From NCBI GenBank assembly GCA_006384855.1, contig VCJN01003132.1, positions 86,591 to 150,590 of the forward strand: a DNA stretch of 64,000 nt, written 5' to 3'. The position numbers and the translations under genes were made by a program. Each line of letters starts with the position of its first letter. Position 1 is the stretch's first letter. The notes under the pieces were generated by a model. It was given only the letters and a program-made list of their open reading frames with translations. It was not told the DNA's origin and made no database searches. This DNA is from Tetraselmis striata. Its lineage: Eukaryota > Chlorophyta > Chlorodendrophyceae > Chlorodendrales > Chlorodendraceae. Below, piece by piece: positions 12,847-38,475 of this stretch.

Positions 12847-13803
12847 TGGGGCGACAAGAACTCTACGGACCAGCTGAATGCGGCAATCGAGGCCCACGCC
12901 CCCGACTACCACCCCCTGCCTGCTGACACCGATATCAAGATGGTGTGCCTGGCCGGCACCCGACACGACCGTGGGCTTTCGCAAGACTGCACAGCGTTCC
13001 TGCTAGAGGCAGTCACATACACCCTGGCGTTCCTTGAGACAAGAACGGTTACGAGTAAGTTCGATGGCCAACGCCCCGCTAGGTCTCGGCCAGCACCGCA
13101 CAACCCGTTCCCAACGATGATGATGGCCAGCGCCGCGCCGAACCCTGAGAGTCATCGCCGCCTCCCTACTCACAAAGTGCATGGCGGCGCCCCGTTGTCT
13201 GCCAAAAACCGGCACTACAACTCCCTGATAAACTGGCTAGAGTTAGAGGACGTCGTGTGGTCGGCGGACATGGCTAAATCGGTCGGCTTCGACTTCGTCT
13301 TCGCCCTCCATCGCGCCGTGTTCCCTCTCAGCTCTCGTTCCAAGACTTGCGTTGTATCTAAGGTATGGGAACAGCTCTGCAAAGGGCCCACCCCACCGGA
13401 CAAACTTTTCGCGTAGTTCTTTGGGAGGAAGCAACTTGGACATAAGGCAGATCGGCCGAACGTTCCGAAGTCGTTGGAGTACCTCATTATGCGTTGTCCG
13501 GCAACGGTAATTGGGTCCAGAAAGGGTAACCGGCCGGGCATCATCGCGTTGCTGAAAGCCCTGGAGCTCTCGCTATTTCGGTATGAGGCGCGGCTCGGCA
13601 AGCAACGCGACTATGGCCTCAAGTCAAAACTGATGGAGGAGCCGGTACGGTCGGCCGAGACGGCGTCGCATGTGGAGACCATCGAGGCGCTGAAAGCGCT
13701 GGCCACCAACCGCGATTTCCCAACCGACATGCGCTCGCTTAGCCACCGACTGCTAGACACCCCCGTCTATGCTGTCGGGTTTATCCTCCTGCATCTATAT
13801 TAA
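12847..13803 (+). pseudogene. Hypothetical protein, one in-frame stop
   Basis: A single frame reads from about 12850 (WGDKNSTDQLNAAIEAHAP) through VCLAGTRHDRGLSQDC, a Pro/Arg-rich stretch, and NRHYNSLINWLELEDVVW. It is interrupted by TAG at 13414-13416 and continues in the same frame with FFGRKQLGHKADRPNVPKS and PGIIALLKALELSLFRYEA up to a TAA at about 13801. No family is recognised. Its position immediately against the left TIR of element B suggests it belongs to an older element that B jumped into. Confidence 0.35.
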
Positions 13804-13868
13804 ATAGTAATGCAACCTATTTTGCCCCGAGGCACGCGGTGCATTGTGGTTAGGTCTAAATTAGGGTT
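13801..13868 (+). repeat. Left terminal inverted repeat of element B
   Basis: The segment ACCTATTTTGCCCCGAGGCA and the following bases to GGTCTAAATTAGGG match, inverted, 10812-10866 at the end of copy A over more than 50 bp. The outermost 30 bp match the right end at 38446-38475. Confidence 0.65.
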
Positions 13869-13964
13869 TGGGGGCAGCAGTGGTATTGAAAGCTAATATG
13901 AATGCCGGTTGGTTCATGTTGTGCCAAGTCGGGGAAACCAATTCCGTCCAAAAGCAGGGACAAA

Positions 13965-14135
13965 TCAAAAGAGTGAAGAAAACGGGATGGTTACAAGAAG
14001 TTTGCGCCACCGGGGGCTGAAACTCTGTCCAAACTGGGACAAAATAGAGCGGGGGCCGTGATGGCTACCAAGTAGTTTGTGCCGTCCGGGGCTGAAACTC
14101 TGTCAAAGCCGGGACAAAACATATGAGCGGCTAAT
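13965..14135 (-). repeat. Subterminal repeats of element B
   Basis: Two imperfect units contain GGGGCTGAAACTCTGTC, GGGACAAAA and CAAGTAGTTTGTGCCG. They are inverted relative to those at 10540-10735, as expected for the same end of an oppositely oriented element. Confidence 0.6.
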
Positions 14136-14149
14136 CTTGCGGAATTGTA

Positions 14150-17100
14150 CTACATATCATCATCTTTGATCACATAATCCCCTCGGTGCTCTGCCGCATG
14201 TTGCCTCTTCTTCTCCGCCGCTGCACGCTCTTCCAGCTCCTCTAACTCGGTCATTGGACGGGGTAGACCCGGCCACTTCTCGAAGTCACTTGGACGCAGT
14301 CTTTGAGTCTCGTCCCATGGCTTCTCTTTGAACCATGAGGTCATCCTGGACTTCATCCCAGCGATTTGCGTCTTCTGGTTGTCAATGAGGATCGTCTTCA
14401 AGTTCCTGTGAGTGAACGAGTAGGTATGATCCATATGGTCCCACCACACGGAAAAGGCCGCAGCGACCTGGAAAAGGCGTGGCAAACCGCACAAGGCGTT
14501 AATTTTTTTTGTTGATCCCATTAAGACACTCACCCGGGTTGCACCCCTCACGCACCGCGGTTGTCCCGGTTCCGGCTGTGACGTCGACGATTGTTGTCCC
14601 GTCTGTTGCCGCCATCTTACGGTGCTTGGCGAAGAGAGCGATAGGCTTTTGGTACTTGTTCACCGTCTGTCTGTTCTCGTCCTTCAATTTCGAACTGTCT
14701 TTGCAGTGACCCAACATGATGGATGTAGAGAACCTGGAAAGGCACAACCGGCTTAGCGAGTAGAATATACAAGCCGGCTATTTTCCACGGATCAAATCTC
14801 ACCTTCGGGGATCATCGAAACGGATGTTGTCAGCTATGATGCTTGGCGGGGGCTTCCTGACGTAGAGGTAGTACTCAGCGTCGTGACGCAGAGAGCCGCC
14901 CATCTTCATCCCGCAATCCTTGGCCCAAGTCAGGACGTGATAGATGAGGTCTTCAGCTTGTTTTTGAACGGCTGTGATTGCGGATCCAAGTTGCAGGTCC
15001 GAGAGGTGAATGAAGAAATGGCACCCATCGAGAGCAGTGTGGACGTCAGAAGATCCAGTCAGGATATTCAACTGCCTGCGCGGGGGCAAATCGGGAATGA
15101 GATAAATGAAAGCACAGTCATCTAGTACGCACCAGGGTTGTGGGGGTTGTCTTGCCTCGCGAAAGCAAACACGTCGTTGAAGTCGTCCGTACCCCACGCA
15201 GCATCATTCGAGTCCCATGTGTGCGAACCAGCTCCGAAAAGCGCGTCGGCAATGAAGACTGTTGCCTTTCTGGCACGAACTGCCGACATGGCGTCCGCGA
15301 CGAAATGTTTTGTCGCGGGAGCCTTGAAGTTCCCCTCCACAATGCGAGTCTTGCAAAGCTCCGTGTTCAACCACACCTTGTCATCCTTGTCGACCTCTTG
15401 GCCCTTGGGCATCACCGGAAGTGCCGAGGCCTGTGTGTATTAGAAAACAGATTCGGGTTAATAGCTCACAACGAAAATTTGATGGAAGAGCATTTGTGGT
15501 TGCACAAGATCTTAGTTACCTTCATCGATATCCACAGCTCATCAGAAACATTCGGAGCGGAAACCGCGATAAGCTCCGGCGCACATGCATGAAGAGCAAA
15601 CTCTGTGAAGAAGGAGATGACCAAGTCCGGCATCTGATTCTTGATGCGATACGCCTCACTCCTGATGGTGGTGTTGGTGGCCGCGATATGCTCTCGAACC
15701 GGTAGTGGTGTGAGACAATCGGCGGATTTCATGTCCCCCCATCTGGCAGGAGGGGTCAGTAAGACCATCAAAGGACCGGAGCGATGAGCACCTTTGAACA
15801 AATCCTGGAACTTTCTGGGGAAGCCTGTTGGGCCGAGGTCATCAACCTTGGCTCGGAACTTGGTGATGGCGTCAAGGCGAGCGGCCGCTTGCTCATCCGA
15901 CACTTTGTCTTGCACATCCCAATCGATGATGTGGTCCGAGAGATATTTCCCCCAATTCCTTGCCGGTTCGTCCGGCGTCCGCAGTTGGATTGTCTCCCTG
16001 CCCTTGGCCGTGTCAATGACATTCATGAGCTTGATGCTTGCTCGACGCAAGAGATCGCGGAACCTCCAGGTCTCAATCATCGCGAGCCACTCCGCGTTGG
16101 TGTGCGTAACAGCCATGGGGCCATTGTCGCCGGCATGCTTTATGTCATCCACCAGCTCGTAGAGGCTCGGGGTCACACTGTGCTCGTCTTGGATGAGCAG
16201 TCCAACCACCATGTACATCTGGCCCACAGGGAGATCCGCGCTGTCGCTCTGCTTGGCAAGAGACGGCTCGTCTAGCCAGGGCGCATGTGGTCCAAAGCCA
16301 ACATCCTGGGTCGAAAAACAAACTTCAGTACGGAGAAAGGAATGATAGTATTCCATGTGATTGACACTGGGGTCGGTCACAACTTACCTCCATGAGGGCG
16401 ACTCGGAAGTGAGCTCCGTCTCTGCCGAAGCCGTACTTCTTATTATCGAGGATTGCATTGATAGGCTTCCGAATTGCTTCGTAAACCTTCCTCACTTCCT
16501 TCTGGGTGAGTTGCCTGCCGCAATTGAGACGCTCGACTCTATCGAGTTCTTGCTGGTAGTAAACAAGTAGGTCTCCGAGTTTGGTGCTGGCTTCGTCCCA
16601 TCCTCGAATCCCGAGGTCTACATGCCGGTAGGCTTCAGAAATCTGCTCAAGGGGCTCAAAAACACTGCGCAAATCATTTGTCAGAATCTAGCAGCATTAA
16701 CAACACGATAAATTTTCATCATGTACGCAGCTTACCGTTGTGGGCGCGAGCAGAGGTCAGTCAAATTTGAGAACTCGCTGCTCTTCTCATCTTTGATGCC
16801 GATCTTCTCAAGTTCAACTTGAAGAACTTCAGACTTCTTGAACTCCTTCACGACTCTGATTTGCGGAAGTGCCCTAAAGCCGGGGCGATTTGCATCCTGC
16901 TCTGCATACCAGCTCTCGAAACATCTGCGAAGGTTATGCAGAAACAATTGCACCGATTTCAAAATTTCGAACGATTGTACCTCGATGACAAACCGTTTCG
17001 TCCCGCTGATGACAGACCGTTTCGTCCCACTGATGACAGAACGTTTCGTCCCACTGATGGCAGAACGTTTCGTCCCACTGATGACAGAACGTTTCGTCCC

Positions 17101-18489
17101 ACTGATGACAGACCGTTTCGTCCTACTGATGACAGAACGTTTCGTCCCACTGATGACAAACCGTTTCGTCCCACTGATGACATACCGTTTTGTCCCGCTG
17201 ATGACAGACCGTTTCGTCCCACTTGATGACAAACCGTTTCGTCCCACTGATGACATACCGTGTCGTCCCACTGCTGACAGACCGTTTCGTCCCACTGACA
17301 CATATTTTTAAACCGCTGACAACAGAACGACTTTTGTCACACTTTACGCCTATTTGCTGCCACGGTCAGCTTAATAATAATGTGGGAGAATCGGTCACTC
17401 ACCAGGAGTTTTTGCATGGACGTGTCTCCCACGACCGTGTGACCCGCCTCGTTGAGCTTCATAGACATGTAGCGGCAGACTTCCGGCGAGAGGCCGATGT
17501 ACATCTTGTCAGATGTGAGGTGGATGCCTTTGTTGGCTTTGTAGATATCCGGATAATTTTTTTTCACCATGCGCTTCGCCTCCCGTTTGTGGCTGCCGTC
17601 GATGTTGGCTTGACGCACGCCGTGGGCGCCCAGAAACTCGATGATTACGTCGAGCTCTGGCTTGTAGGAACTTGAATCAGCCAACCTCGGCTTCTCCATG
17701 CCTTCGTGTGCTGCGACTAGCTCCTTGAAGTTGGCCATGGTCAGAGCGAGTGGCTCATACACTTCGCGGAAATTTGAGGTCATACTCTTGGCAACCACTG
17801 GAAAGGACACTGAGAAATTCTCGGCGGATAGGGAAGGATTTCTCTGAATAACAAATGCAAGAAATGGATGTCAGTGAGTTGCATTGTGTATTGATTTAGA
17901 TTTGTCTACACATATTTGATCCGGATAGGTACAACATGTCGCGATAGGCTTTTACCTTGTAGCTTTGCGCCACCATATTGCAGTCTTGCAGCTTTGGGGA
18001 ACGGAATTCAAATTCTGGCGGCGGTGCGACGAAGTTATCGGATGTAAAGCTGAAAATGTAAGGCAGCCCCGTATCCTTGTCGAGGTTGACTCTGTCGGCG
18101 TATAACATGTTGATGTCGCCACCGTGAGTTGTCTTCACCTCTGGATCAGCAATCTCGACTCTGAGGTGGCCGTAAGAGATCCAGTCGACGGCACCGGTGT
18201 GGTGGAAGCCATTCAAGGCCCGCGGGACGGCCAACGTGTCGACGAATGGAAGCGCGTTCTTAAAATCCTTGTCAATGTTGGCCAAGTCATCGATGTCAAT
18301 CTGACCAGACGCGAAACCTGTCAACGCCTGCGACAGCACATTGCGCTCGACCAAAGTCCATGCGTAGTAAGACTGGAACCGCGGCTGGAAGGAGAGTGGC
18401 GGTTGGATCGCGTGGAGTAGCAACCTCTCAAAGTTGACATCGATCCTGAACTCCTTGTGCACTGTCAAGCGATAAGGTTCAAGAGATAT
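14150..18489 (-). CDS. Transposon-encoded beta-class (N6/N4) DNA methyltransferase, C-terminal exons
   Basis: Nine consecutive exons keep one reading frame: 17956-18489, 17403-17843, 16736-16980, 16388-16664, 15520-16305, 15156-15430, 14803-15075, 14556-14733 and 14150-14467. All use GT-AG except 15156-15430, whose donor is AG|GCAAGA. The last four exons form an N6_N4_Mtase-like domain in the order of the beta class. A motif IV region VFIADALFGAGSHTW is followed by VLTWAKDCG and HDAEYYLYVRKP. Next come VNKYQKPIALF and motif I IVDVTAGTGTTAVAAAF, then NLKTILIDNQKTQIAGMKSR. Motif IV has D-A-L-F instead of D-P-P-[FYW], so activity is doubtful although the SAM site looks intact. The upstream roughly 680 residues match no family I know. 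The preceding exon ends at 30635, beyond the Gypsy insertion. Confidence 0.6.
16981..17310 (+). repeat. 24-bp minisatellite array 1, in an intron of the methyltransferase gene
   Basis: About 13 imperfect units with the core CCGTTTCGTCCCACTGATGA plus ACAR. It occupies the intron between exons 17403-17843 and 16736-16980 and reaches the 3' splice site. Because 24 is a multiple of three, both strands show spurious open frames. Confidence 0.85.
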
Positions 18490-18564
18490 CTGCGGTAACA
18501 AGCATAAGAATATTAATACTTATTGATACACGAAATTGACACGAATTCAGAGACATTATATAAG

Positions 18565-19515
18565 TGCCGCAGCATCCGTCATATCCGCGTGCGCGTGAAG
18601 AACGGGACAGCCAAGCCCTTCCGGGTCGGCTAGGGTTAAATCTAGGGTTCCATACCCGGTTGAGACCACAGGCAGGGCACCTGATTGGTTAGGGTTCCAT
18701 ACCCTGGCCATAGCCCTGAGCGAGGCGCAAGGAGACATACATACCGGAGATCAGAGACCCGACCAAGCACACCTGGGCGGGACTTTTAAGGGAACTCAGA
18801 TAGTACCTCTAATCGGGACCTCTACCAGGGACCCCTAAGGTAGACTACCTGCAGAAGACGAAGTACTGTACTGCTGCTGGTACAAGGCGCAAGACTCACT
18901 GTAGCCGCGGCCGAGTAGTAGTATAGGACTTAATGAGTACAATTAGACAAGGGCAGTGCGTAATGCGTCTGGCGCGCGGTGCGCGCACGGCGCGCGTGCT
19001 AATAGCACTTAGCGTGACGTGCGGCCTCCTTGCCATGGCCGCGATCGCGTGCTTATAGAGGGCCTCCGCCTTCTGGCGGTCCCTCTTCCCCCTTGTCTTG
19101 CCTGTGTGTGCCTGTGTTTGCCTATGACAGGCATAGGCAAGAGCCTGTGTACGGGACGGAGACGGTGTACGAGACGGAGATCGGCTTGAGGAACGAGGGC
19201 CAAAGGTAATCACGGTAGCCTGCGTGCTTGTCGTACGGTCGCACGCGTGCTGCTCGCTGCATCGTGCGCGCGCGCTGGTGGTGGTGCTGGGTTGTCACCA
19301 TTCGACCCGGTACCGACGTAAAGTACTGTAGGAACGGTTGATAGCCGCGACCAGCACTGCATAAAGTACTGCATGGCGTGGCAGTGACCTGTGGTGAGAG
19401 GCTTCATTGCCACTGGCATTCACCCCCCTGAGTACGGGCAAGACCAGCAACGGTGGTCTGAACTAAAGCCCTATAGGCGTCTGAGAGGTGCCTGTAGTGA
19501 CTTAGGTTCGCGTTC
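18565..19515 (+). repeat. Left terminal repeat of the Gypsy element
   Basis: About 950 bp beginning TGCCGCAGCATCCG. It contains an internal inverted pair, CCCTCTTCCCCCTTGTCT at 19081-19098 and AGACAAGGGGGAAGAG at 19516-19531. Bases 18566-19098 recur directly at 29116-29647. The whole block recurs inverted at about 29648-30590. The exact LTR 3' boundary and primer-binding site were not resolved. Confidence 0.65.
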
Positions 19516-19964
19516 AGACAAGGGGGAAGAGCTCTCGTGGGTGAGAGTGAGTGCTAGAGGTGAGGAAAGGTCTAAGGGGTGTTGGAGACAAACCTATACG
19601 GGAACTACTCGTAAGAGTACATAAGACTCGAAGGGTGAGGGGACAAAACCCACTAGAGGGTGGGCCAGGAAGGCCCTCGGACTAGTGAGGTGACGAGGTG
19701 TGGAGTGGTTCGAGTTTCCTTTTGGGTTTGGTGACGAGCGAGAGGCAAAGGGTTTGCCACCTCTGGGGACACTTTGTGTTTGTGCCTGAGCGAGCCGTGA
19801 ACAACGGGGCATTGAGTGGGCGAAGGGCACTAACGCCAAGCTAAGTGTGTTGCTGAGTGGCTCTTTCACCCAGCGCGGCCTCTGAGTGAGAGCCACGGCG
19901 TGCCGACGCTCTTTCACCATCCCGCGGGAGGTGAGAGAGCGGCGTGTTCCTTTGGGTACCAATT

Positions 19965-20040
19965 GGCCTGCTCCGGTTCTTTTGGCCTGCTCCGGTTCTT
20001 TTGGCCTGCTCCAGTTCAACGACCTGCTCCAGTTCAACGG
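19965..20040 (+). repeat. Four tandem 19-bp units in the leader of the Gypsy element
   Basis: GGCCTGCTCCGGTTCTTTT is repeated at 19965, 19984, 20003 and 20022, the last two copies changed to GACCTGCTCCAGTTCAAC-type sequence. It lies between the left terminal repeat and gag. Confidence 0.75.
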
Positions 20041-20405
20041 TTCAACGACGACAGGTGGTAGGAGGGAGGCAGGGCGTGAGCCCGGGAGTGGGAGGGCGCC
20101 GGCTTCACAGTCGTGTGTCAGTGCCGGAGTGCACTTGGAGGGAGCGGCATCGCCGCCTGAGGGCCCGGCGAGGGTGACGGCTGGCGGGTGCGTGGCTCAG
20201 CTCGGTGCCAACTTCTTCGTGGCGGTGGTGTGGATCTGAGGTTCATCGGCACTGAGTTATACCGGAGGTTAGAACTGTTCGTGTATCGGCTTGAGACGGG
20301 TGTGCGCCAACACCGGCGAGGCGACGCGGCAGCGGCCCTCAGATTTAGGCCGCATGGACGCAGCCCCACTTCTGAGCTTGAGGGCCCCGGCGTGGGCGAC
20401 AGCCA

Positions 20406-23400
20406 GTGGACGCGCTGGAAAGCGCAGAGGGCGGCTTTGCCCTGGGCGACCTGTGGGCAGCACTGGACGAGCTGGAGGAAGACCAGCTGATCGAGGAGGT
20501 CGTGGAGGGGCTGCTGAACGACGTAGACGCATCCAACCAGGAGGGTGAGGAGTGCGATCACGAGAACGCGTACGCATACAGCAGCAGCGAAGCAGAGGAC
20601 AGCGGAGACGAGAAGGACGAGCTCTACTTTTCCCCGCTGCCAACACGCAACCCTAGGCGAGACACTTTGTACGGACACGCGTACTTTGTGGACGTCGCAA
20701 TGAGCGACGATGAAATGGAGCCGCGGAGGGGCAAGGGCTCCAGCGGGAGGTTGTGGGCGGGTCACGAGAAGGCGACCTCAGAGCACACGTTTGAGACGTG
20801 GAAAAACTCTACGGACTGTGCCATTTGAGAAGGGGCAACAACAGGCATTTGACCGCAACAGACCGTTCAACGAGATCCACGAGGTTCACGTGCTGCGGAG
20901 CCGCATTCAGCCAAAGTACTTGGAGTCGCTAGAGACTACACTCATCAGCCGGGGCATCAAGTACGAGGACTCGAGGATCGTACGGAGGCTGGAAGGCGCA
21001 GAACGGCTCGACTACTACCGCCGGTTGTTGGACGGCATGTGGGAGGAGCTCGTCAACATCACCAAGCAGATCGAGCTGCATTCGGAGCGGTACAGCAAGT
21101 GCCATCGCTCGCCTGGTGAGACTGTGCGCAATTTCCGCAATCTGTTGCTAACGCACACCAGGGTCAAGAACCTTGTCACCGAGGAGACGACACGCATTGT
21201 GGAGATAACGCGCGTCAACGTTAAGTTCATCGAGCGGGCCTGGGGCAAGACGCGTTTCAGCCCCCGCATCAACTTCGCACAACAACAACTCGTGGACTAC
21301 ACCCAGGTGGACATGACCTGGGAGATGGTTGAGTGGCTCGACAAGCAGGAGCGCGGCAGCATTCACATGCGCGCTCACTCGCGCGTCTAGAGCGGAGGCG
21401 GCAGGCGGGGTTTTGACCACGAGGAGCACAACAGCCGCGGTGGCGGTCGCGGCAGCAACAGCCGTGGTCGTGGAGGCAGCCACGGAGAGGGTGGCAACTA
21501 CCATCGACGTGGAGGTGGAGGAGGTGATCGTGGAGGCGGGCGCACGGAGAGGAGCGCTTACGCCCGTGATGGAGATGATGGTGGGCGAGGCAGCCACGTC
21601 AATGAGGCAGGTTGCTATGGTTGTGGGTCGAAAGATCACTACAAGAGCGACTGCCCTCTGTGGAGCAAGACGTGCTCTGAGTGTGGCAAGAAGGGCCACA
21701 TTGCCAAGCGGTGCTGGAAGGCCAACCCTGATCTCCGTCCGGAGACCGCCATGGCAGGAACCAATCCCAGGGAGCACATCAGAGTGCGCGAGGAGCCCAA
21801 GAAGCCGGACCGCAAATCGTGCATGATGTGTGGCAAGGATGCGGGCCACACAACTGAGGAGTGCGGGAAGCTGCGCAAGTTCGTTGCGAACCTGCATGCG
21901 ACAGACGGCCACGAACCCAAGCACCCGCCGCTCAACGGCTATGCTCAAGTCGTCGGCAGCGAGGAGGGCGAGGTGGTGGGGCTGGCAGCAGCCAACCAGT
22001 TGCGCCCACAACGTAAGAGCACGGAGGCTCAACGCCATGGCGTCAACACGGTGCGCATGGAGGACGGGGAGCGTGAGGCCAGGCAGCGGAGGCTGCCTCG
22101 CAGCTTCACCACCCCATCGATGGAGATGGCGCAGCAAATGCACAGCCGTACAGAGCTGACGGCGAAGCTCACCAGCGCAGCACAGAGCGTCACAGTGCCT
22201 GTGTCGCTGGCCAACGGCGGTGGACAGCCGCGCATGCCACTGATGGAGATCGCCAAGCGGCTGGTCAAGCACGAGCCCGTGGAGGATGGCTGGGAAAAGC
22301 ATGTTGTCATGCGTGCTCTGGAGAGCAAGCGAGTCTCCATCAGCTTGATGGAGGCTTACCAGCTCGAGCGCAGCGGCGGCGGGATGATGGAGAGCGTCAT
22401 GGCAACAGCATGGGGCGGCGGTGCCCTGAGTACCGAGCCGATCAGCAGCCACGCTCACTCAGCCATGACCTCGAGCGGGGAGCGCACCTTCGAGGCAGCG
22501 CTAATGATGGTGGAGGAGGTCGCTGACCAACAAAGCGGCGGCAAGTCTACCGCGGAGGAGAAGACCGCCGGCGGAGAGGCTGAGACTGAACGGTCTTTTG
22601 CCATTTACCGGCCAGGTCAACTCGCGAGACAACGCGAGGAGGAGGAAGATCGCAAGCGTGCAAATGCGCAGCGCAATGCCAGCACGGCGGTTGAGGAGGC
22701 ATCAGTGTGTCGCCGCAGCGGCAAGTGGCAACCCGCCACTGACTATCGACGCAGTGCTACTGAAGCAGACATCAAGGAGCAAGCACTAAGGCTGCCCAAA
22801 GGGTCTGAGACCCGACGCTGCCTGGAGCAGCAGGCGGAAGTCGCCAACAAGGGCATTTTTGCCCTTCAGCCCACGGGGGCTGAGGCGAAGGAGCAGCCGG
22901 AGACGGCTCGGCTTGACACCATCACGTGCGAGTTGCACGCCAACAACACCATGCTGCAGTGCGAGACCATTTCCGACGGCGGCAGCAGCCACACCCGCAT
23001 GAACGCGTCAGCGATGGAACCAAGCGCGGCGGAGGCCGTGGTGAAGGGCGCTGGCGGGTGGGTGGACGTCGACATGGTGGTGGTGCTCGCCAATGGCAAG
23101 CGCTCATGCAAGCGGCAACGACGATTGCGGGATGGCGTGGTCTTCACGCTTCGGGACCCCGTCACCTCAATCATGGCAGCTCATCACGCACCGCGCGTGT
23201 ACGAGAATGGAGGCGAGGCACCGGGCTTGCTGCTCGGTGGACCCACCATCACAGCCCTCGGGCTGCGACCGGACCCGGCGACCAGAATCTGCACTTTCCG
23301 CGCACCCAACCGACCAGCCGGCAGAGTGCTGCTGCTCAGTCAAACGGCGTGGGAGCGGCGGGTCCGCGAGCACCAACCTGTGGTGCGCGTGGAGAGAGCG

Positions 23401-27500: not shown

Positions 27501-28987
27501 GCAAGCAAGCCAGCACCATGTACAGCCCATACGAGTTGGTGTACTGCAGGGCGCCCGTGTTTCCCCCGCAGGCGAGAGCACTCTTTGAGGAGAGCGCCGT
27601 GGACTTCAACAGCCCGGAGGGCATGTGGGAGCTGATGACAGTGCGCGCGGAGCGTTTGGCGCTCATGGTGCCGACGGCGATGCACAACGTGGAGGCGGCG
27701 CAGCATCGTGAAGTGATGCGCTATCGCAGGAGGCGCGCGGGGTTGGTGGCGCCCGGAGTGCAGCGCTTCAGCCCCGGCGACTTCGTCTACGTGCAACAGC
27801 GGCAGCAAGACGCGCTCGATCCACGGGTGCGACCGGCTGTTTACAAGGTTTACGAGGTGAACGACAACGGAGTGGTGGTCATCCAAGGAGCTGACGGTGA
27901 CACGGCGCGCGTGCGCGTTGAGGAGCTGGCGCGGTGCGCCGTTCCATACGTGGTGTTGCCGGCAGGATTTGAAGACCCAAATATGGCGTGCGAGGAGTGC
28001 GACGGGCGCGTCAGCACCCAGCGCAACCCGATCATCATTTGCGAAGACTGTGAACGAGGCTGGCACAAGTTGTGTCATCAGCCATCTGTGGCACGTGTGC
28101 CGCGGGGAGCATGGCGGTGTGCGGAGTGCAGCGCTGATGACGCAGCGTTGCCGGCACAGTGGACATCGGTGGCTTTAGCCGCCACAACAATCAGTGACAA
28201 CGACGACAGCGACGACGAGATTCAAGACCATGCCCCGCCTTTGCAGCCGACCAGAGCAGCGGTGGCAGCAAGACTGAACTGGGGCATGCCTGGCGGCTGG
28301 CACCCAGCAACTGTGACAAGAACGATGAACAACCTTCAAGCAGCCAATGACTATCTACCGGCAATCAGTAACCAAGTGAGCGAGTACGCTGCGCTAGCCA
28401 ACGTGATCAGCTGGCGCGGCCGAGTAATCTTTGATCCGTGGGCGGGACATGGCAGCACCGCTGAGGCCTTGCGGTTGTGCGGTGCGACAGTGATCAACAA
28501 CGACTTCAATCCGATGTACCAAACTGAGATGTGCGAGGACGCGCTGGAGTCCTTTGTGTACCAGTGCGCTCGCGATGTAACCGCAACCGTGGCGACGACG
28601 ACGATGACGACAACGATGATGACAACACAGCCGCGGTTAGAGGCCCCTTTCATAGTGGTGACCTCCCCGTGGTTCCAAATACTTGATCTGGCGCTGCCAA
28701 TCATGGCGTCATGCGCGGACATCCTTTTCGTGCAAGTACCGATCTTCTACATCGCGCAGGGACCTTCCCCGCGCATGCAGTGGCTACGGCATCTAGGCGA
28801 CTGTGGGCGGCTCCACATTATTGCCGGCGACATGCAGCGTAACCGCACTACGCGCCGATCAACCCTGTGGCTCGCGGTCTTCCGCGACAACGAGCTGCGA
28901 GAGCGAGAACTGCGAGCTGAGTGGCGTCACTCCGTGGCGTCAATTCACTTCCACACCGAGGCGTGCGCTGGCGACCAGCATCACTGA
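23660..28987 (+). CDS. pol: Gypsy pol: C5-MTase, RT, RNase H, integrase, PHD finger, second MTase-like domain
   Basis: One frame runs to TGA at 28985-28987 with two in-frame TAGs (26342-26344 and 27110-27112). After the C5-MTase, hydrophobic stretches near 24700-24820 precede RT, with GFDAKSAFHQ (about 25450) and YADD (25637). RNase H has HTDFSGAG, YEGECLAM, VVTDHRPLEWL and NADCLSR; the first TAG falls just after the third motif. Integrase has the H2C2 finger (HVKMGHLG, CPDCDR), HLDLAGPF directly after the second TAG, CTDGGTEFSG and NGLAEGMVKTVKEA. A GPY/F-like module (FSPGDFVYVQQ, GVVVIQG) follows. The PHD finger (27989-28132) contains CEDCERGWHKLC and WRCAEC. The last domain has IFDPWAGHGSTAEAL, NNDFNP and VVTSPWFQILDLALP. 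The TAGs could be CAG-to-TAG changes by cytosine deamination, so this copy is probably inactive. Confidence 0.75.
28410..28960 (+). other. Second, Rossmann-type methyltransferase-like domain at the pol C-terminus
   Basis: DPWAGHGSTAEAL (28433) fits the SAM-binding motif I of class I DNA/RNA MTases. NNDFNPMY is an acidic loop after the second strand. VVTSPWF (28655-28675) is at the place of the catalytic [DNS]-P-P-[YFW] motif. It lacks C5-MTase motifs and is separate from the upstream C5-MTase. I have the impression that PHD-plus-TSPWF tails recur in algal Gypsy elements; a database search would be needed to confirm. Function is unknown. Confidence 0.5.
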
Positions 28988-29037
28988 GCGTCAATTGGCG
29001 CCCAGCGGCCGTTCACCCTTCTGGCGACCAACCGTCG

Positions 29038-29055
29038 GGGGGGGGGGGGGGGGAT
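29038..29055 (+). promoter_or_regulatory. Poly-G run in the polypurine-tract position
   Basis: A run of about 17 G followed by ATGGG sits about 60 bp upstream of the right direct terminal repeat and 50 bp after the pol stop. That is where a retrotransposon polypurine tract is expected. The position is suggestive, but the family's own PPT is unknown to me. Confidence 0.35.
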
Positions 29056-29115
29056 GGGCCGCCCATGGAGCTGGTGACAGCGCCCCACGCGGGAATGCGA
29101 GCATGCGACGGCAGC

Positions 29116-29647
29116 TGCCGCAGCATCCGTCATATCCGCGTGCGCGTGAAGAACGGGACAGCCAAGCCCTTCCGGGTCGGCTAGGGTTAAATCTAGGGTT
29201 CCATACCCGGTTGAGACCACAGGCAGGGCATTTGATTGGTTAGGGTTCCATACCCTGGCCATAGCCCTGAGCGAGGCGCAAGGAGACATACATACCGGAC
29301 ATCAGACCCGCCCAAGCACACCTGGGCGGGACTTCTAAGGGAACTCAGATAGTACCTCTAATCGGGACCTCTAACAGGGACCCCTAAGGTAGACTACATG
29401 CAGAAGACGAAGTACTGTACTGCTGCTGGTACAAGGCGCAAGACTCACTGTAGCCGCGGCCGAGTAGTAGTATAGGACTTAATGAGTACAATTAGACAAG
29501 GGCAGTGCGTAATGCGTCTGGCGCGCGGTGCGCGCACGGCGCGCGTGCTATTAGCACTCAGCGTGACGTGCGGCCGCCTTGCCATGGCCGCGATCGCGTG
29601 CTTATAGAGGGCCTCCGCCTTCTGGCGGTCCCTCTTCCCCCTTGTCT
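29116..29647 (+). repeat. Right direct terminal repeat (partial) of the Gypsy element
   Basis: Nearly identical to 18566-19098, with a handful of substitutions (for example CACCTGATTGG to CATTTGATTGG). It stops at the CCCTCTTCCCCCTTGTCT motif, after which the sequence switches to the inverted copy. Confidence 0.75.
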
Positions 29648-30620
29648 GAACGCGAACCTAAGTCACTACAGGCACCTCTCAGACGCCTATAGGGCTTTAG
29701 TTCAGACCAGCGTTGCTGGTCTTGCCCGTACTCAGGAGGTGAATGCCAGTGGCAATGAAGCCTCTCACCACGGGTCACTGCCACGCCGTGCAGTACTTTA
29801 TGCAGTGCTGGTCGCGGCTATCAACCGTTCCTACAGTACTTTACGTCGGTACCGGGTCGAATGGTGACAACCCAGCACCACCACCAGCGCGCGCGCACGA
29901 TGCAGCGAGCAGCACGCGTGCGACCGTACGACAAGCACGCAGGCTACCGTGATTACCTTTGGCCCTCGTTCCTCAAGCCGATCTCCGTCTCTTACACCGT
30001 CTCCGTCCCGTACACAGGCTCTTGCCTGTCATAGGCAAACACAGGCACACACAGGCAAGACAAGGGGGAAGAGGGACCGCCAGAAGGCGGAGGCCCTCTA
30101 TAAGCACGCGATCGCGGCCATGGCAAGGCGGCCGCACGTCACGCTAAGTGCTAATAGCACGCGCGCCGTGCGCGCACCGCGCGCCAGACGCATTACGCAC
30201 TGCCCCTGTCTAATTGTACTCATTAAGTCCTATACTACTACTCGGCCGCGGCTACAGTGAGTCTTGCGCCTTGTACCAGCAGCAGTACAGTACTTCGTCT
30301 TCTGCAGGTAGTCTACCTTAGGGGTCCCTGTTAGAGGTCCCGATTAGAGGTACTATCTGAGTTCCCTTAGAAGTCCCGCCTAGGTGTGCTTGGGCGGGTC
30401 TCTGATCTCCGGTATGTATGTCTCCTTGCGCCTCGCTCAGGGCTATGGCCAGGGTATGAAACCCTAACCAATCAGGTGCCCTGCCTGTGGTCTCAACCGG
30501 GTATGGAACCCTAGCTTTAACCCTAGCCGACCCGGAAGGGCTTGGCTGTCCCGTTCTTCACGCGCACGCGGATATGACGGATGCTGCGGCGGCATGCGGG
30601 AATGCGAGCATGCGACGGCA
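29648..30620 (-). repeat. Right inverted terminal repeat of the Gypsy element
   Basis: The reverse complement of the whole left repeat, first 19515 down to 19099, then 19098 down to 18566, followed by 30 bp (GCGGGAATGCGAGCATGCGA core) not present at the left end. With 29116-29647 it makes a large palindrome with arms of about 530 bp around a 410-bp centre. Confidence 0.75.
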
Positions 30621-30634
30621 TAAGCTTTACTCAC

Positions 30635-31166
30635 CCCGTAGTTTCCGGCCGAGTCCAGCTCGACGTCCTTGATCTTTCCGATACACGCGAGAAGTGGCCC
30701 CTCCGGATCATCGAAAAAGTCCTTGCCAGTCAGCAGGCTCGCCTTGTGCAATTCGATGTACAAATAGATCTGTACCTTAGCACTTGTGTTCTTGAACCAG
30801 TAGATAGTCCAGCTCCGCGAAGTGAAGTCGTTGTAGGAGTCATGTTCTTGGGATCCGTCCCTCTCGTCAAAGAAGTCGTCGTAAAAGGCGACCGTCATCA
30901 GCTTTGTCTTCCTCTCGGGTCAAGGAGTGCCGGTGATGTCGAGAGCTTGCTTACGCTTCTCTGCCGCCCGTTGCCTCTGTTCTTCCTCTGTGCCGAAGAC
31001 CTCTTCATCCGTGCACATACTGAGGAATTCAGGAACCCTTCTCGGAGCCTCGGCAATAGGGGCTCGAGAACCAGAGGCTCCAGAACCGGACGCTTGCCCG
31101 GTAGTCGGCGCGGGAGTCTCGAGCTCGGCCTCTGGCTCCGGGTCAAGCCGAGTGGGCTCGGGCTCG

Positions 31167-31202
<36 letters not shown>

Positions 31203-31906
31203 ATCTGAGTGGGCTCAGTTTCAGGCTCATGCCGAGGCTCTGGCTCGGGCTCTTTGGGCTCTGTTTCAGGCTCCGGCTCGGGCTCCGGCTCCGGCTCAGT
31301 GTGCTCTATTTCAGGTGCTCTATTTCAGGCTCAGGCTCTGTTTCCGGTACTTGAGATGGGCCTTTAGACAAAGAAGAGGCTTGATTCGGGGAACCTGTAA
31401 AGAATGAGTAGAGAGTACTCAACACACCTGCAGTGGGCGTCACGATTAACTACTGAATGGTATCGCCATACACCATCAAAGCCAAGCGTGATTTTTCTTA
31501 CCTGGGGATCCTGATTTACCAGCTGCTTCCGACAAGGTTGCCTGCGCCAATTGACGACCTGTTGGAACGTCAGATAACTCATTGACGAGAAACTAATCGA
31601 AGGGAGTGAGAAGGCAGGGATTGATACTTTCAGTCACAATTACCTGGAGTCACAATCGTCTCTGAAACCTTTTCTTTTCCCTTGGATTCCTTTGAAGCTT
31701 GAGTCGCTTCTGGCTCATTTGCGCGTCCTTTCGAACCTGTCAACACACATGATTTCAAACAATGTAAATATGACACAGTGCACTCTCAAAGGCAGGGATT
31801 GATACTTTCACAATTACCTGGAGTCACAATCGTTTCTGAAACTTTTTCTTTTCCCTTGGATTCCTTTGAAGCTTTAGTCGCTACTGGCTCCTGTGCGCGT
31901 CCTTTC
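30635..31906 (-). pseudogene. 5' exons of the methyltransferase gene, with a 14-bp duplication and an in-frame stop
   Basis: The exon ending at 30635 (ACIGKIKDVELDSAGNYG) has a GTGAGT donor and joins in phase to 18489. Reading upstream in the same frame is FYDDFFDERDGSQEHDSYN, then a TGA at about 30920-30922 where the protein would otherwise run on, then [28 protein letters not shown] and a Glu-Pro repeat region. In the upstream part of that exon a tandem 14-bp duplication (CCTGAAATAGAGCA twice, near 31304-31331) shifts the frame. Farther upstream are small exons: GRQLAQATLSEAAGKSGSPG (about 31508-31560) and two duplicated copies of an exon reading ASKESKGKEKVSETIVTP. The disruptions suggest the gene is now dead in this copy. 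Confidence 0.45.
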
Positions 31907-31985
31907 GAACCTGTCAACACACATGATTTCAACCAATGTCAATATGACACAGTGCACTCACAAAAATCATATGTTTGGAGAGGCA
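31640..31985 (-). repeat. Tandem duplication of an exon-intron unit
   Basis: Two copies of about 170 bp contain the exon GSKGRA[QN]EP..ASKESKG with its acceptor (TGTTGACAG) and donor (GTAATTGTGA). They differ by few substitutions. Both exons keep phase 1 at each side, so both could be included without frame change. Confidence 0.7.
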
Positions 31986-31991
31986 AGGACC

Positions 31992-33179
31992 TTATTGATA
32001 GTAAGCTTGCATGAGCTTTTCGTAATCGATTAGCCTTCGCGCTGTCTGCATTTGAGCATCTGAGAGGACTTGGCCGCTTTCGATTCGGGCCGTCAAAAGA
32101 GCGGCCGCCGATCTTTCTCCTTGCGAGTGCGTGCCGTAAACCGGCACTCTACCCCCTAAAAGGCTAGGTTTCCAGGGGTTACCTGATGCCTCAGCGCCCG
32201 CTCTAGCTGCAGAAGCCGAGGCTGCACGGCTCTTCTTCGCCGCCGGCTGCTCGGGCACAGAAGATGACGCCTTGTGTTTTCTCCCGACTAGCGCTCCGAG
32301 CGTATCGAATTCTTTTGCTTTCTCGGTAGGTTTTGATGTCCGCTTGGACCTTCGCCCTGTAAATATCATATTCTGTCAGATCAAATCGATCATCAGATTG
32401 ATCATCAGATCGTCCCGCTGATGACAAACCGTTTCGTCCCACTGATGACAGACCGTTTCGTCCCACTGATGACAGACCGTTTCGTCCCACTGATGACAGG
32501 CCGTTTCGTCCCACTGATGACATACCGTTTCGTCCCACTGATGACATACCGTTTCGTCCCACTGATGACATACCGTTTCGTCCCACTGATGACATACCGT
32601 TTCGTCCCACTGATGACAAACCTATTCTCAATACATTGTGTACTGCGGTTTAATAACGTAATGTCTTTAAGTACTGCGCTTCACACTAATATTAAACCAC
32701 TCCTTACGGCGGAGTACATGCACAGGTTCCACCTGGCCGCTCTTCACCCCCACCCCCTCCCACCACCAATTAGCATCCTTACTGAACTTGCCGCAGCTGC
32801 CTCGACGGGACGTAATACTACCCTGCAGGACCCTGATGCCGCTCGTCTCGTTGGGGTTTCTATTCCCACTCGTCTGCCTACACCTCGAGCGGTCCTAGAT
32901 TACACCGCTTCTACAGGGAACCCTAACCGAACTCGCTAGATCTGGCCGTATCACGCGTCGAGCATGCAGGCGGCTACTTTACGCTCCCACTCGTCTGCCT
33001 ACACCTCGAGTGGTCCTAGATTACACCGCTTCTACAAGGAACCCTAACCGAACTCGCTAGATCTGGCCGTATCACGCGTCGAGCATGCAGGCGGCTACTC
33101 TACGCGCGCGCAACTCACCTGGGGTGGCGTCGTCCTTGTCTTCCTTGTCCTTGGCAGGCTCGTTCTTCTTCGGCGCCAT
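31992..33179 (-). CDS. Small basic, probably nuclear protein of element B
   Basis: Two exons in phase, 33119-33179 and 31992-32356, give 141 residues starting MAPKKNEPAKDKEDKDDATP and ending KLMQAYYQ at a TAA. The donor is GTGAGT, the acceptor TTTACAG. The protein is rich in Lys, Arg, Ala and Ser, with runs such as RRSKRTSKPTEKAK and AAKKSRAASASAARA that look like nuclear localisation signals. The C-terminal half (ALLTARIESGQVLSDAQMQT) is predicted helical. It could also be the 5' part of the longer downstream methyltransferase gene if the TAA is a later mutation. Its first intron contains minisatellite array 2 and a 121-bp tandem duplication. Confidence 0.5.
32408..32635 (+). repeat. 24-bp minisatellite array 2, in intron 1 of the basic protein gene
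   Basis: About nine units with the core CCGTTTCGTCCCACTGATGA, in the same chromosomal orientation as arrays 1 and 3. These units are the most uniform of the three arrays. Confidence 0.85.
32865..33106. repeat. 121-bp tandem duplication in the same intron
   Basis: The block starting CCCACTCGTCTGCCTACACC is present twice, at 32865 and 32986, with few differences (CGAGCGGTCC versus CGAGTGGTCC). Confidence 0.8.
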
Positions 33180-33727: not shown

Positions 33728-36700
33728 ATGGCGACGGTCGAAAGCATGGTCTCTTCTCCAGGATCCGGCGCGTCGGACACTACAGCTACATTACCGCCGT
33801 GTTCGTGCCGCAACGGGTACTCGTGTGATTGCGACGCGCGTGCGAGTGATCGTAAGGAGCCTGAGAAAAGGAAGTACACGTGGGGCAAGGGCTCCGATGA
33901 GGTCGCCGAAAGCGATAATGGCAAGGTCTCGTCTCTGATCAGCAAGCGCACCTCTCGCGATTGTATCCGCCTCATGCTCGCCAAGGAGGCTAGCGAGCAG
34001 TCGCCATGCTGTTCGCGCAAGTGCGTGCACATGCTATACACACAGTGCGGAGAGGCCCTCGTTGATGCCGTGTTGGACCGTGCGTTGACCGTATACTCTG
34101 GCAATCAGAACCGCTCCTTTGACCGGCTCGCTCAGGTTCTCAGGGGTGGCTACGAGTCGGCATCCGACAAGTTCGATTACATGTTTGATCACGGTGGCTA
34201 CTTGCGCTCTTTCGACCATCGGGGCCCCATCTACATGTGTGGGCGTGCGTGGGAGGCCTTGCATCAGGTCTCGAAACACAGACGTCTCGTGATCCAGCGG
34301 TCGGTGGTGGATAACGAACCCACGTACATCAGGCAGCGCAAGCAATACGAGAGCAGACAAACCGGACCGAGGGAGCATGTGCGCATGTTTCTCGAGCACT
34401 TCTTCTCGGATGACCTCGGTCACGTCGAGATCATGCCTTTTCATGACGGAAACAGCGAGACCTTCAAGAAGCACCTACCTCCCTGGATGACCAAGATTTG
34501 CGTCTACTACTACTACAAGTCGTGGGCCGAGGACGACAACGCCATTCTCCGTGGTGAGGCCCATTTTGTCCCACTAATGGCATACCGTTTTGTCCCGCTG
34601 ACGACAGACCGTTTCGTCCCGCTGATGACAAACCGTTTCGTCCCACTGAGGACAAACCGTTTTGTCCCGCTGATGACAGACCGTTTTGTCCCGCTGATGA
34701 CAGACCGTTTTGTCCGGCTAATTACATACCGTTTTTGTCCCGCTGATGACAAACCGTTTCGTCCCACTGATGACAGACCGTTTCGTCCCGCTGATGACAA
34801 ACCGTTTCGTCCCACTGATGACAGACCGTTTTGTCCCGCTGATGACAGACCGTTTTGTCCCGCTGATGACAAACCGTTTCGTCCCACTGATGACAAACCG
34901 TTTTATCCCGCTAATTACAGACCGTTTTGTCCCGCTGATGACAGACCGTTTTGTCCCGCTGATGACAAACCGTTTCGTCCCACTGACGACACATCGTTTT
35001 GTCCCGCTGATGACAGACCGTTTCGTCCTTCTATTTACAAACCGTTTCGTCCCGCTATCGCCAGAACGTTTAGACCCACCGACGCCGGACCGATTTCGTC
35101 CCACTGATGACAGAACGTTTCGCACCGCTTATGGCATGCCGTTTCGTCCCACCGACCACAAAAGTATTTGTCCCACATAATTAGCCGATATCGTCCCACT
35201 GCAGAGAGAACGTCTTGTCCCACTGCTGAGAGACGGTTTTGTCCCACTACTGACATACCGTTTCGTCACACTGATGACAGATTGTTTCGCCATGTTGATT
35301 ACAGAATTATTCACCCACTATCGATATAATTATTTCGACCCACTTTAGACCGAACTTTTCTGTCTCGCATTATGAGATCTTATTTGTATACCGACCTATC
35401 ATGCCCCTGCCCCTTTGTAGCTTTGGCTACCGAGAGCGAAGTGAAGCTCGCATCCACACCGGTTCCCCGGGTACTCGCTGAATGAAATCCTCCCGGGGTT
35501 TAAGCTGTGTATAGCGGGGTCACAATCCTGAGATGCAACTACCGAAACGAGAGCGAATAGTGATTAGTATCCGGTTGATACAGTCAAACATAACGTCATT
35601 TGATGAAAACTCAGAGCCCACGTGACCACCCGTCTCGCCAACCCATCCCGCCCCACCGCTGCCAATCGAACACACAGACCGGCACCATCACGCGCATACC
35701 GCTGTAGCAGCGCGCTAACGTAGGCATATGGGGGGGTTCAGGTGCCTCGTCTTGTGTGTCGCGGGCAGGGATGGGGCTGGCGGCGGGATGATGAGGGAGG
35801 AGCGCGAGCGGTCACGTGCTAATATCACGCACGTAGCGCGTGCCACGTAGCCAAAAAGCGTTGCCAGCTACACATCTCGGATTTGAGACCCGTTTACGGT
35901 CTTCAGAAACGAGTACCTACGCGAACCGGTGTGTCGTTCGACACTTTCCGCCAGACTTGGAAGGAAGACTTCCCGGATGTCACCACGCCAAAGGTGAAGC
36001 GATTCAGCCACTGTCCCATATGCGCGGCGGGCAAAGCACTCAGAAACCAAGCTCGCGAGATTTGCACAAAGGACATGACGCAAGAGGAACGTCAAGTGCA
36101 CCGTCAACATCAGCAGCTGGTGAGGCGTCAGGTCAGAGCTGAGCAGAAGGTACACCTCGAGAGAGTGCGCCAGGAACGAAGGGATCTGAACAACGCCGTC
36201 TTCCAGTCGCGCCTTGGCCATGGAAACTTCTTCTTCTTCGAAATTGATAGCATGGACTCCGCGAAGACCCTGCTGCCTCATTGGGTTCGCATCCCCAAGA
36301 CTGTGAAGCCCGACATGCTCCTCAAGTACCACCTCACCTATGTGAAGTACGGCGGATACCGCCCGGACGACATCTACTACTACACCAACACCATCCCCCA
36401 CGATTCGTCCACGACGTGCACTCTAATATGGATCACGATCATAAAGGTGAGCTCGTTAGCCTCCCGATAGGTTCGCTGTGGTTGTCCGGTAGCCATGGAC
36501 TGATGAAATCTGATCTGCGATGCAGGAAATTCAACACCGTGGTAGAAAGATTCCGTACATCAGAATCCAGATGGACAACACCGTCAGGGAGAACAAGAAT
36601 AGGAACGTGGCGCCCCTTTGCAATTGGCTTGTGTCTATCGGCATCTGCGACGTCATTCATTTGGTCTTCTTGCCTGTCGGGCACACTCACGAACGGGTTG

Positions 36701-37989
36701 ACCAGATCTTCAGCCGCATCAGTCTTGCGCTATCTCGCAGCTCCGCCTACAGAATCGAGGCCTTTCTTGACTTGGTGGCGAAGGCACTCTCGCCCACTCC
36801 GGAGATTGCTGAGCTCTCATTCTCCCTCGACTTCTCTGAGTGGTTAAGGCCCCATTTCCAAGACCACATTCAGGACATCAGTAAGCCGCACAAATTCGAG
36901 TTCACCCGTGACGACACCGCCGCGTCTGGCGGCTCGTTGCGCACCGCCTTGTGGTCCAACACACCGCTTTCTGAGCCCGTGCAGATCTTGAAGAGCGCGC
37001 CAACTGGGACGCCCGAGATTCGTGCGGGCCGGCCCCTTTTGTACGCTCTCTGCGACAAAAAGAAGCCCGACGCGGTGCAGGTCCAGAGGTATTGGATGAT
37101 TTCAAGAAGGTCTGGTCGTACATCACGGACCTGGCGGTCCAGTGGCACTTCTCCCCAGTCGAGCGCGAGAGCTGGAAGAATCTGCTCGACGACTTGGATG
37201 AGGTGCAAACTGCTCCTTCGGCAGCTTTCTCCGGGTTCTGGCCGCAACGGAAAGAGGAAGTTGACGACTTCTTGCGCGAGCACGGGCAGACCGCGCCTGC
37301 TGAGGCACGTCACACGATGGCTACCAACGCAGACCTCAACAATGCCGAAGCCGCTCGCGTTGAAGCCGAGGTTCGTGCTCAAGTGCTTCAAGATGACAGC
37401 GCCTTCCGGGGAGTTCACGCCGGCGCCAAGGAGAGGCTTCATGACAACACATCGCCCTGCGATGCAAAGGGCTCGAACCTCGTTGTCATCGACGTCTCCG
37501 ATGTGAGTCCCATTGTTTGTCATTTGTGTCCTTTACGGGACAAAACAATTTGGTTCATATACCTTGCTTGTTATTTTGTCCCAACTTGGAAAAAAATGGC
37601 GTGGTGTCTCGCTCGGGACTAACATAGCTCGCGGTCTTGGTCATCGTTAGGTACATGAGGAAGACAAGTGTCCTGAAACTCTTGGTGATTGGGAGTCGAG
37701 ATTCGTCATCGGGCTTGTGAAGTCGCGCGAGACTACCGAAGACACGTTGACCGTGGCCGCATACGAGCCCTTCCATGCCGATGCAAAGGGCAAACCCCTC
37801 ATGCCCCTATGGTTGTACGCGCAGACAAAAGGAGGGAAGAAGCCAGTTGACACAAGCTGGGAGAAGTGCCTGACGCTTCCTTGGAAGCTTATTGAAGCCG
37901 TCCTCCTATCGTACGCGAAGGCCATCCACGACGCGTCGGGAAGTCGAGAGGTGTTCAACGAGGACGGCACCATGGTCAAAAAGAAGTAG
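33728..37989 (+). CDS. DUF7869-type (RNase-H-like) transposase
   Basis: Four exons: 33728-34553, 35851-36446, 36526-37502 and 37651-37989, all GT-AG. Phases agree except for a one-base frameshift near 37093, where RYLDDFKKVW would be continuous. The N-terminal part has a Cys-rich start (CSCRNGYSCDC) and MCGRAWEALHQVSKHRRLV. Exon 2 has FSHCPICAAGKA, a possible zinc site, then an acidic strand FFFFEIDSMDSAKTLLPHW. Exon 3 has the family signature IRIQMDNTVRENKNRNV and FLPVGHTHERVDQIFSRIS. In DUF7869 proteins these blocks carry the putative catalytic acids and the GHTHxxxD motif. The last exon ends TMVKKK. Intron 1 (34554-35850) is filled with 24-bp repeats. The single frameshift may be real or a sequencing error. 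Confidence 0.65.
34556..35300 (+). repeat. 24-bp minisatellite array 3, in intron 1 of the transposase gene
   Basis: About 30 units. Many carry the variant CCGTTTTGTCCCGCTGATGA. Toward the 3' end the units decay (CTATTTACA, CACCGACGCC). The array starts within a few bases of the 5' splice site. Confidence 0.85.
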
Positions 37990-38077
37990 TACGGTAAAAG
38001 CGTCCAAGTCGTGAAGACATATATATGCGCAAACTGGGTGGCAAATCAGCCAGCCACGAAACAACTGCGTCCACGTC

Positions 38078-38176
38078 ATGTCAACCCCCCCAGCGCAACG
38101 CAAACCCGGCGGAGTCGTCAAGTTTAACGCAGCCACGAAGAAGGACTTGCTTGAGTTGGGGATGCTCAACGAGTAA
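38078..38176 (+). CDS. Small ORF after the transposase gene
   Basis: A 32-residue frame MSTPPAQRKPGGVVKFNAAT then KKDLLELGMLNE. It may be an alternative last exon of the transposase, since a CCCCCCCAG acceptor lies inside it, or chance. It lies between the transposase stop and the right TIR. Confidence 0.2.
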   Translation: MSTPPAQRKPGGVVKFNAATKKDLLELGMLNE

Positions 38177-38445
38177 ACTATCAGCAACGTCTTGTGGCTA
38201 GCTAGCCGCTGGATGTAATCATCATAATAAATGTTGATTTCATTGCCTCATCTGGTCCAATTTGGACAAAGTGCTCCAAAACCAACATTGGATATGCGTC
38301 GCGGCTGGCCTGCATGCTGATGAATGCTGCACTGCACCCAAGCAAGGTCTACAAACCCAAGCTACATCACCAGTGAGTCTTAAGTACTGATAGTAGACCC
38401 GGGAACTAGGGTTTAAACAAACCCTACGGTGCAAAATGAATTCCA

Positions 38446-38475
38446 CGGTGCAAAATAGGTTAAATTACTGTTATT
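38446..38475 (-). repeat. Right terminal inverted repeat of element B
   Basis: CGGTGCAAAATAGGTTAAAT followed by TACTGTTATT, matching the left end inverted. A second GGTGCAAAAT lies 20 bp farther in. Confidence 0.6.

Follow-up and report, generated by a model that had tools for sequence, protein, structure and literature searches.

Transposons and retroelements with DNA-modification genes are already known (PMC12730594, PMC3627910, PMC5890265). Fungal DNA transposons of several groups (KDZ, hAT7, IS3EU, EnSpm, PHISTA and others) carry TET/JBP dioxygenases (PMC12730594), and algal-virus Mariner elements with a TA target-site duplication (TSD) and an endonuclease partner carry Methyltransf_26 or C5 enzymes, as single copies (PMC3627910). 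We analyzed a stretch of 64,000 nucleotides (the window) from the green alga Tetraselmis striata (assembly GCA_006384855.1, contig VCJN01003132.1, positions 86,591 to 150,590, forward strand). It contains a DNA transposon with terminal inverted repeats (TIRs), very likely a member of a family that carries both a rightward DUF7869 gene and a divergent leftward gene whose product resembles bacterial DNA methyltransferases of the N6/N4 type.

The Tetraselmis element is similar to the TET/JBP elements in that a TIR DNA transposon holds a DNA-modification enzyme beside the transposase, and differs in having a methyltransferase-like domain instead of a dioxygenase, a probable transposase with DUF7869, and a green algal rather than a fungal host (PMC12730594). 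Over 1215 of the 1474 aa of the leftward protein, and in the DUF7869 protein (P0020), no dioxygenase Pfam match was detected. The virus Mariner elements are likewise DNA transposons bearing a methyltransferase gene, whereas the Tetraselmis family is nuclear, is present in many copies, and has a domain of the PF01555 type (PMC3627910). Retrotransposons carrying DNMT or Dam genes are also selfish, some of them algal, and encode DNA methyltransferases, but they are not TIR transposons and their enzymes belong to other methyltransferase families (PMC5890265, PMC6338049). A eukaryotic PF01555 methyltransferase is described in bdelloids, N4CMT, a chromodomain host gene that marks transposons for silencing, unlike the transposon-borne domain of Tetraselmis (PMC8885841). 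Sola2, compared by its TSD description alone, shares the 4-bp TSD length, but its TSDs are AT-rich and those found here are not AT-restricted (PMC3627910). A first-pass annotation of the window had proposed the pairing of the two genes and knew of no description of it; we found none for DUF7869 and a methyltransferase between TIRs in the literature searched, with most subscription journals and Repbase outside reach, and no mention of DUF7869 in that literature.

Element ends, target sites and copy number

The first-pass annotation placed the transposon at 13801..38475 between matching TIRs. The ends were detected at 13803 and 38472, at most three bases away, with ATTA at both flanks, and the two terminal 26-mers of the window copy are identical at 22 of 26 positions (Table 1). 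The interval holds as a TIR element, but about half of it (18565-30619) is a nested retroelement absent from that annotation. The genome searched comprises 224 Mb in 2903 contigs. By pattern search, nine of ten sister loci have ACCTATTTTGC-type ends at left and right; the tenth, C1496, showed the right end only and was excluded from the end-to-end copy count. Cut at the common terminal sequence, the nine sister copies measure 12,194-13,751 bp and, read end to end, carry the two genes between the same TIRs. This agrees with the proposal that one TIR transposon joins a gene for a DUF7869 protein to one for an N6/N4-type methyltransferase.

An exact 4-bp TSD is present in nine of ten copies (eight of the nine sisters and the window copy), and its sequence varies by site among the sisters (ATAT, AAAT, GTTA, AACT, ACCC, ATGT, ACAT, ACCA), with mismatched flanks in C1481. 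Matching TIRs together with a TSD of fixed length that differs among sites are the features of a TIR DNA transposon. Genome-wide, the 33- and 35-nt end patterns (up to 2 mismatches) gave 282 left and 246 right ends, with 0 for each in the reversed-pattern control. Among 100 listed ends per side, 34 pairs face each other 5-40 kb apart, 23 of them at 12.1-13.4 kb and the others at 7.3-27.5 kb.

Algal giant viruses are large and have methyltransferase genes, and the size and gene content of the interval could suggest that it is no mobile unit but a DNA virus that has integrated, or else a duplicated segment. We regard this as extremely improbable, given the TIRs, the 4-bp TSDs that vary in sequence by site and are present at nine of ten sites, and the spliced genes. 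The IMG/VR contigs contained no relatives of the methyltransferase part (searched as a single sequence) or of the DUF7869 alignment, the phage records contained no relative of the methyltransferase part, and no capsid or replication genes were seen between the TIRs in the open reading frames and proteins given to Pfam, which cover part of the bases.

Table 1. Coordinates of the transposon, its genes and associated repeats in the window
Feature	Position	Strand	Details
TIR DNA transposon, window copy	13803..38472	.	24,670 bp; ~12.6 kb minus nested retroelement
Left TSD, ATTA	13799..13802	.	
Right TSD, ATTA	38473..38476	.	
Left TIR, ~27 bp	13803..13829	+	supported by 282 genome-wide left ends
Right TIR, ~27 bp	38446..38472	-	supported by 246 genome-wide right ends
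Leftward gene, 13 exons	14150..33179	-	mapped by BLAST from exons of sister copy C1562
Leftward exons 1-5	33179-33119, 32354-32183, 31910-31818, 31394-30635, 18489-17956	-	
Leftward exons 6-9	17843-17403, 16980-16736, 16664-16388, 16305-15520	-	
Leftward exons 10-13	15430-15129, 15075-14803, 14733-14556, 14467-14150	-	
Methyltransferase-like domain, exons 10-13	14150..15430	-	ADALF at motif IV, then YLYVRK, QKP, motif I DVTAGTGTT
DUF7869 gene, 4 exons	33728..38172	+	33728-34553, ~35923-36446, 36526-37502, 37651-38172
24-bp array, leftward-gene intron between exons 6 and 7	16984..17298	+	
24-bp array, leftward-gene intron 1	32410..32622	+	
24-bp array, DUF7869-gene intron 1	34564..35289	+	
Nested Ty3-type long terminal repeat (LTR) retroelement (our reading), extra inverted LTR	18565..30619	+	within leftward-gene intron; not transposon proper
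Older truncated, decayed methyltransferase end	8603..10874	+	inverted; leftward exons 9-13 at 8603-10528, 77-88% identity

The DUF7869 gene and the methyltransferase-like gene

The rightward gene, recognized as DUF7869-type in the first-pass annotation, matched PF25273 (DUF7869) with an E-value of 1.1e-34 at 36514-37506 (+). In the sister copy C1562 its four exons form an open frame of 949 aa, divergent from the leftward gene. In the window, an in-frame stop interrupts this gene near the C-terminus and small indels distinguish it from that of C1562; eight of ten copies are free of in-frame stops. The ratio of nonsynonymous to synonymous polymorphism (pN/pS) is 0.23 (nine copies, window left out), and the transposase is thus under constraint. 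The protein is up to 99% identical to Tetraselmis striata models (jgi/Tetstr1, TSEL tags), and five distant DUF7869 relatives were detected outside Tetraselmis. D, K and PVGHTHxxxDQxFS are kept in six of six aligned distant relatives, and the first-strand aspartate is kept in the rows covering it; a low-confidence structure model orders the elements of this region as b-b-b-a-b-a-b-a. The protein is a probable DDE/D transposase, judged from these conserved residues; a search of PDB with the DUF7869 profile gave chance-like matches only.

The first-pass annotation had read the spliced leftward gene as a methyltransferase, which was right in substance (31.1 bits to PF01555 in C1562), but its nine-exon model was replaced by one of 13 exons. 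In C1562 these have GT-AG introns and form a single ATG-to-stop frame of 1474 aa. In the window, an in-frame stop and small indels set this gene apart from that of C1562; with similar defects in its DUF7869 gene, the window copy is therefore probably not autonomous. Seven of ten copies are free of in-frame stops in the leftward gene, and most of those show gaps or indels when compared with C1562. The leftward protein is 71-95% identical to T. striata models of the same set; no relatives outside Tetraselmis were found within the length and word limits of the search. Acidic E-P-coding repeats and a duplicated exon 3 were observed in the window's leftward gene at 31115-31297 and 31634-31964.

The methyltransferase-like domain lies in exons 10-13. 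The corresponding 312-aa region of C1562 matched PF01555 (N6_N4_Mtase) with E 2.9e-07 and 31.1 bits, over the cut-off of 26.7, and the 252-aa part from the window's own exons matched with E 0.0019 and 18.6 bits, under it. For the identity of METHYLTRANSFERASE, PF01555 E-values are 2.3e-07 to 4.4e-07 across C1562 and variants; seven variants were aligned, three of them public models and four spliced here, and PF01555 matches six of these at E <=1, the best at 2.3e-07. The window's own spliced region also matched PHROG_67 'DNA methyltransferase' (E 9.1e-07), and NCBIfam CcrM gave a weak match (2.4e-04), far below its cut-off. Profile search therefore supports the methyltransferase assignment, weakly in the case of CcrM, and 'N6/N4 DNA methyltransferase' is to be taken as a label by homology. 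Beta-class amino-methyltransferases have the catalytic motif IV [DNS]PP[YFW] and the S-adenosylmethionine (SAM) motif I C-terminal to it. Motif I, DVTAGTGTT, stands C-terminal to the motif IV site in nine of ten copies, with T to S in the tenth, and YLYVRK and QKP, both reported in the first-pass annotation, were found after the motif IV site in all ten.

The inspected public models skip an exon-11 stretch around GCHFFIHLSD (36 residues of the exon 10/11 region in P0077; P0001-P0019 likewise). With the stretch, PF01555 aligns over profile positions 47-199 with 31.1 bits, and without it over 76-199 with 27.5 bits, the two values coming from different copies (C1562 and P0077). We retained the stretch in the gene model because the match is longer and stronger with it, and we think that it is coding. 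Two candidate features were rejected: the TPPA of exon 9, which is too distant from the profile match to be the real motif IV, and a BAH domain in exon 4, an impression for which the Pfam search gave no match.

The two genes occur together repeatedly. At least 68 of the 150 listed DUF7869 matches have a divergent methyltransferase match within 20 kb, at a median distance of 9.4 kb; for three more, the only such match has another orientation, and for 79 the 123 methyltransferase rows used contain none. On contigs C1-C1580, there is evidence of a divergent methyltransferase for 54 of 85 exact copies of the DUF7869 core, and of one in another orientation for two. In the public annotation, seven of 19 leftward-protein matches have a DUF7869 match at the adjacent locus tag (for instance, TSEL_018301/018302). 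The public model P0065 (TSEL_005106), 533 aa, is a fusion of the DUF7869 core to the C-terminal part of the methyltransferase, possibly derived from an internally deleted element.

The methyltransferase gene is also associated with the TIR. An exact listed left TIR stands at 665-749 bp from 56 of the 100 listed motif-I places, and the other 44 have none among the exact ones listed. Methyltransferase exons away from these TIRs, which would have spoken against the proposal, were seldom seen: with 0-6 mismatches of 44 allowed, the left TIR was detected in 27 of the 29 best-scoring methyltransferase loci (L009-L038, L025 being without a motif-I match), 637-725 bp past motif I and as a rule near 710 bp, and was absent from L020 and L024. 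Of the 40 rows listed, 37 have the TIR; three rows repeat places, and counted by distinct places the figure is 34 of 37. The TIR is also present in the diverged copies L015 and L016, and the association of methyltransferase and TIR is therefore old within the family.

Possible roles of the leftward protein

Our best guess, to which we give modest preference, is a two-gene cut-and-paste TIR family with DUF7869 as transposase and the leftward protein as a cis-acting accessory amino-methyltransferase that marks or opens the element's DNA. The DUF7869 DDE/D transposase would act on the TIRs. The leftward protein would be an accessory DNA-binding protein with a C-terminal domain of the beta-class amino-methyltransferase fold, acting in cis on the DNA of the element, most likely by N6-methyladenine (6mA) or N4-methylcytosine (4mC) marking, or by opening; either could let the element escape silencing or time its transposition.

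The candidate targets are 24-bp repeats. The unit CGTTTCGTCCCACTGATGACAAAC and its variants form three arrays per copy at corresponding places in all ten copies. All are on one strand, the opposite strand of these copies yielding none, and the arrays of C1562 are in the same three introns. These three same-orientation intronic arrays in ten of ten copies are new here. The genome contains 1806 exact matches to a 35-nt stretch of the array, against 0 in the control, and each of the 100 listed has a landmark of the element (TIR, methyltransferase or DUF7869) no more than 10 kb away. The arrays are the best candidates for binding sites of the leftward protein or the transposase. In Arabidopsis, VANC21 recognizes tandem motifs that share one orientation and lie in noncoding parts of VANDAL21, introns among them (PMC5735166). 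Both systems have same-orientation noncoding arrays that are rare outside the element and an accessory protein encoded by it; VANC21 differs in being an anti-silencing DNA-binding protein and not a methyltransferase, and the likeness is one of arrangement (PMC5735166). A parallel between the 24-bp arrays and VANC anti-silencing targets is offered as a hypothesis. In a more specific and rather doubtful version, an amino-methyltransferase with a non-canonical motif IV would recognize the arrays and put a private 6mA or 4mC mark on all copies of the family; if true, this would mean silencing evasion or licensed transposition, and a eukaryotic analogue of the solitary bacterial modification enzyme, serving one mobile family.

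Several results weigh against an active enzyme or against the two-gene family. The chief one is selection: the methyltransferase exons show no clear purifying selection. The median dN/dS of the whole leftward gene is 0.555 without the window copy and 0.54 with it, and pN/pS in exons 10-13 is 1.20, 1.94 (few changes), 0.81 and 0.74, respectively (nine copies). By codon-position counts against C1562 (30-31 copies per exon, three overlapping the nine), a third-position excess is not clear in exons 10 and 13; it is slight in exons 9 and 12, and exon 11 is mixed. The motif IV position, called degenerate in the first-pass annotation, reads ADALF in ten of ten copies and not [DNS]PP[YFW], and the PF01555 match starts C-terminal of it, covering the SAM-binding half. 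Of the public models, P0077 passes the PF01555 cut-off with 27.5 bits, and P0078 (23.6) and P0065 (25.7) fail. AlphaFold modeled the methyltransferase part (P0077, 8 rows, minus the 36 residues) at low confidence, with a mean predicted local distance difference test (pLDDT) score of 34, and PDB gave no match to this part by sequence. The DUF7869 model (P0022, 13 rows) is also of low confidence (pLDDT 41), and Foldseek with it returned nothing below E 0.27; its insignificant matches, many to Argonaute and one to RuvC (RNase H-like), were not counted as evidence. For 29 of the 85 DUF7869-core copies no methyltransferase is among the matches listed. Three TIR-TIR pairs on contigs C48, C200 and C70 are 7.3-7.5 kb long, and could be internally deleted, non-autonomous derivatives.

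Methyltransferase exons with no clear purifying selection, and DALF at motif IV in all ten copies, favor a close rival of the cis-acting marking or anti-silencing role, which we hold as a tentative possibility: the same transposon with a catalytically dead methyltransferase-like domain, the leftward protein serving as a sequence-specific DNA-binding accessory that, comparably to VANC or TnpA, helps in anti-silencing or in transposition. The same-orientation intronic arrays, as for VANC21 targets, point the same way (PMC5735166). The SAM motif, kept in nine copies and altered only from T to S in the tenth, argues against a dead domain, as do exons 11 and 12, which vary least in the leftward gene and are near-invariant in both substitution classes.

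The weak constraint between copies (median dN/dS 0.54) would also suit a captured methyltransferase gene carried as passive cargo, of no use to the element. We find this quite unlikely, because a passive passenger would be expected to decay faster: the 1474-aa frame is open over 13 exons in C1562, and the distance from gene to TIR is about constant even in the diverged copies L015 and L016.

Nested retroelement, older copy and significance of the family

The retroelement of about 12 kb doubles the length of the window copy. It is flanked by ATAAG at 18560-18564 and 30620-30624, and the corresponding site in C1562 is single and uninterrupted. Reverse transcriptase, RNase H, C5-methylase and PHD domains scored over cut-off, and integrase reached 29.8 bits, just below 32.6; from the domain order we read the retroelement as Ty3-type. 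At 23660-26344 and 27113-28987 (+), it has the C5-cytosine-methylase match (PF00145, E 7.5e-05, just over cut-off), upstream of the reverse transcriptase, and, after the integrase, the PHD finger (1.4e-06) and a stretch with a DPWAGHGS / TSPWF motif pair; this stretch looks like a second, amino-type methyltransferase and has no Pfam match. The terminus is unusual, with a partial direct LTR, then a full-length inverted LTR and an apparent short repeat of the internal end (29116-30619).

The older copy of the methyltransferase end, noted at 8.5-10.9 kb in the first-pass annotation, was recovered as an inverted remnant (Table 1), adjoining the same TIR sequence, which ends near 10874. Inverted repeats at 10879-11097 and 38786-39052, 87-94% alike, adjoin this old copy and the right side of the element, suggesting another repeat family or a common insertion site. 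The 24-bp repeats are present in both orientations in the 7.3-7.5-kb pair on C48. No Rfam family reached its gathering score in the window.

Taken together, the element is a high-copy eukaryotic DNA transposon whose DNA-modification-type gene represents an enzyme class that is rare in eukaryotes. It also makes DUF7869, an uncharacterized domain, a candidate transposase domain. Chlamydomonas, also a green alga, is among the lineages with robust 6mA in a study whose title links 6mA to permissive chromatin (PMC12695648), and a transposon that writes amino-methylation would therefore be a plausible route to anti-silencing. The family raises the questions of whether such elements mark themselves and whether the 24-bp arrays direct the mark, for which long-read technology is suited.

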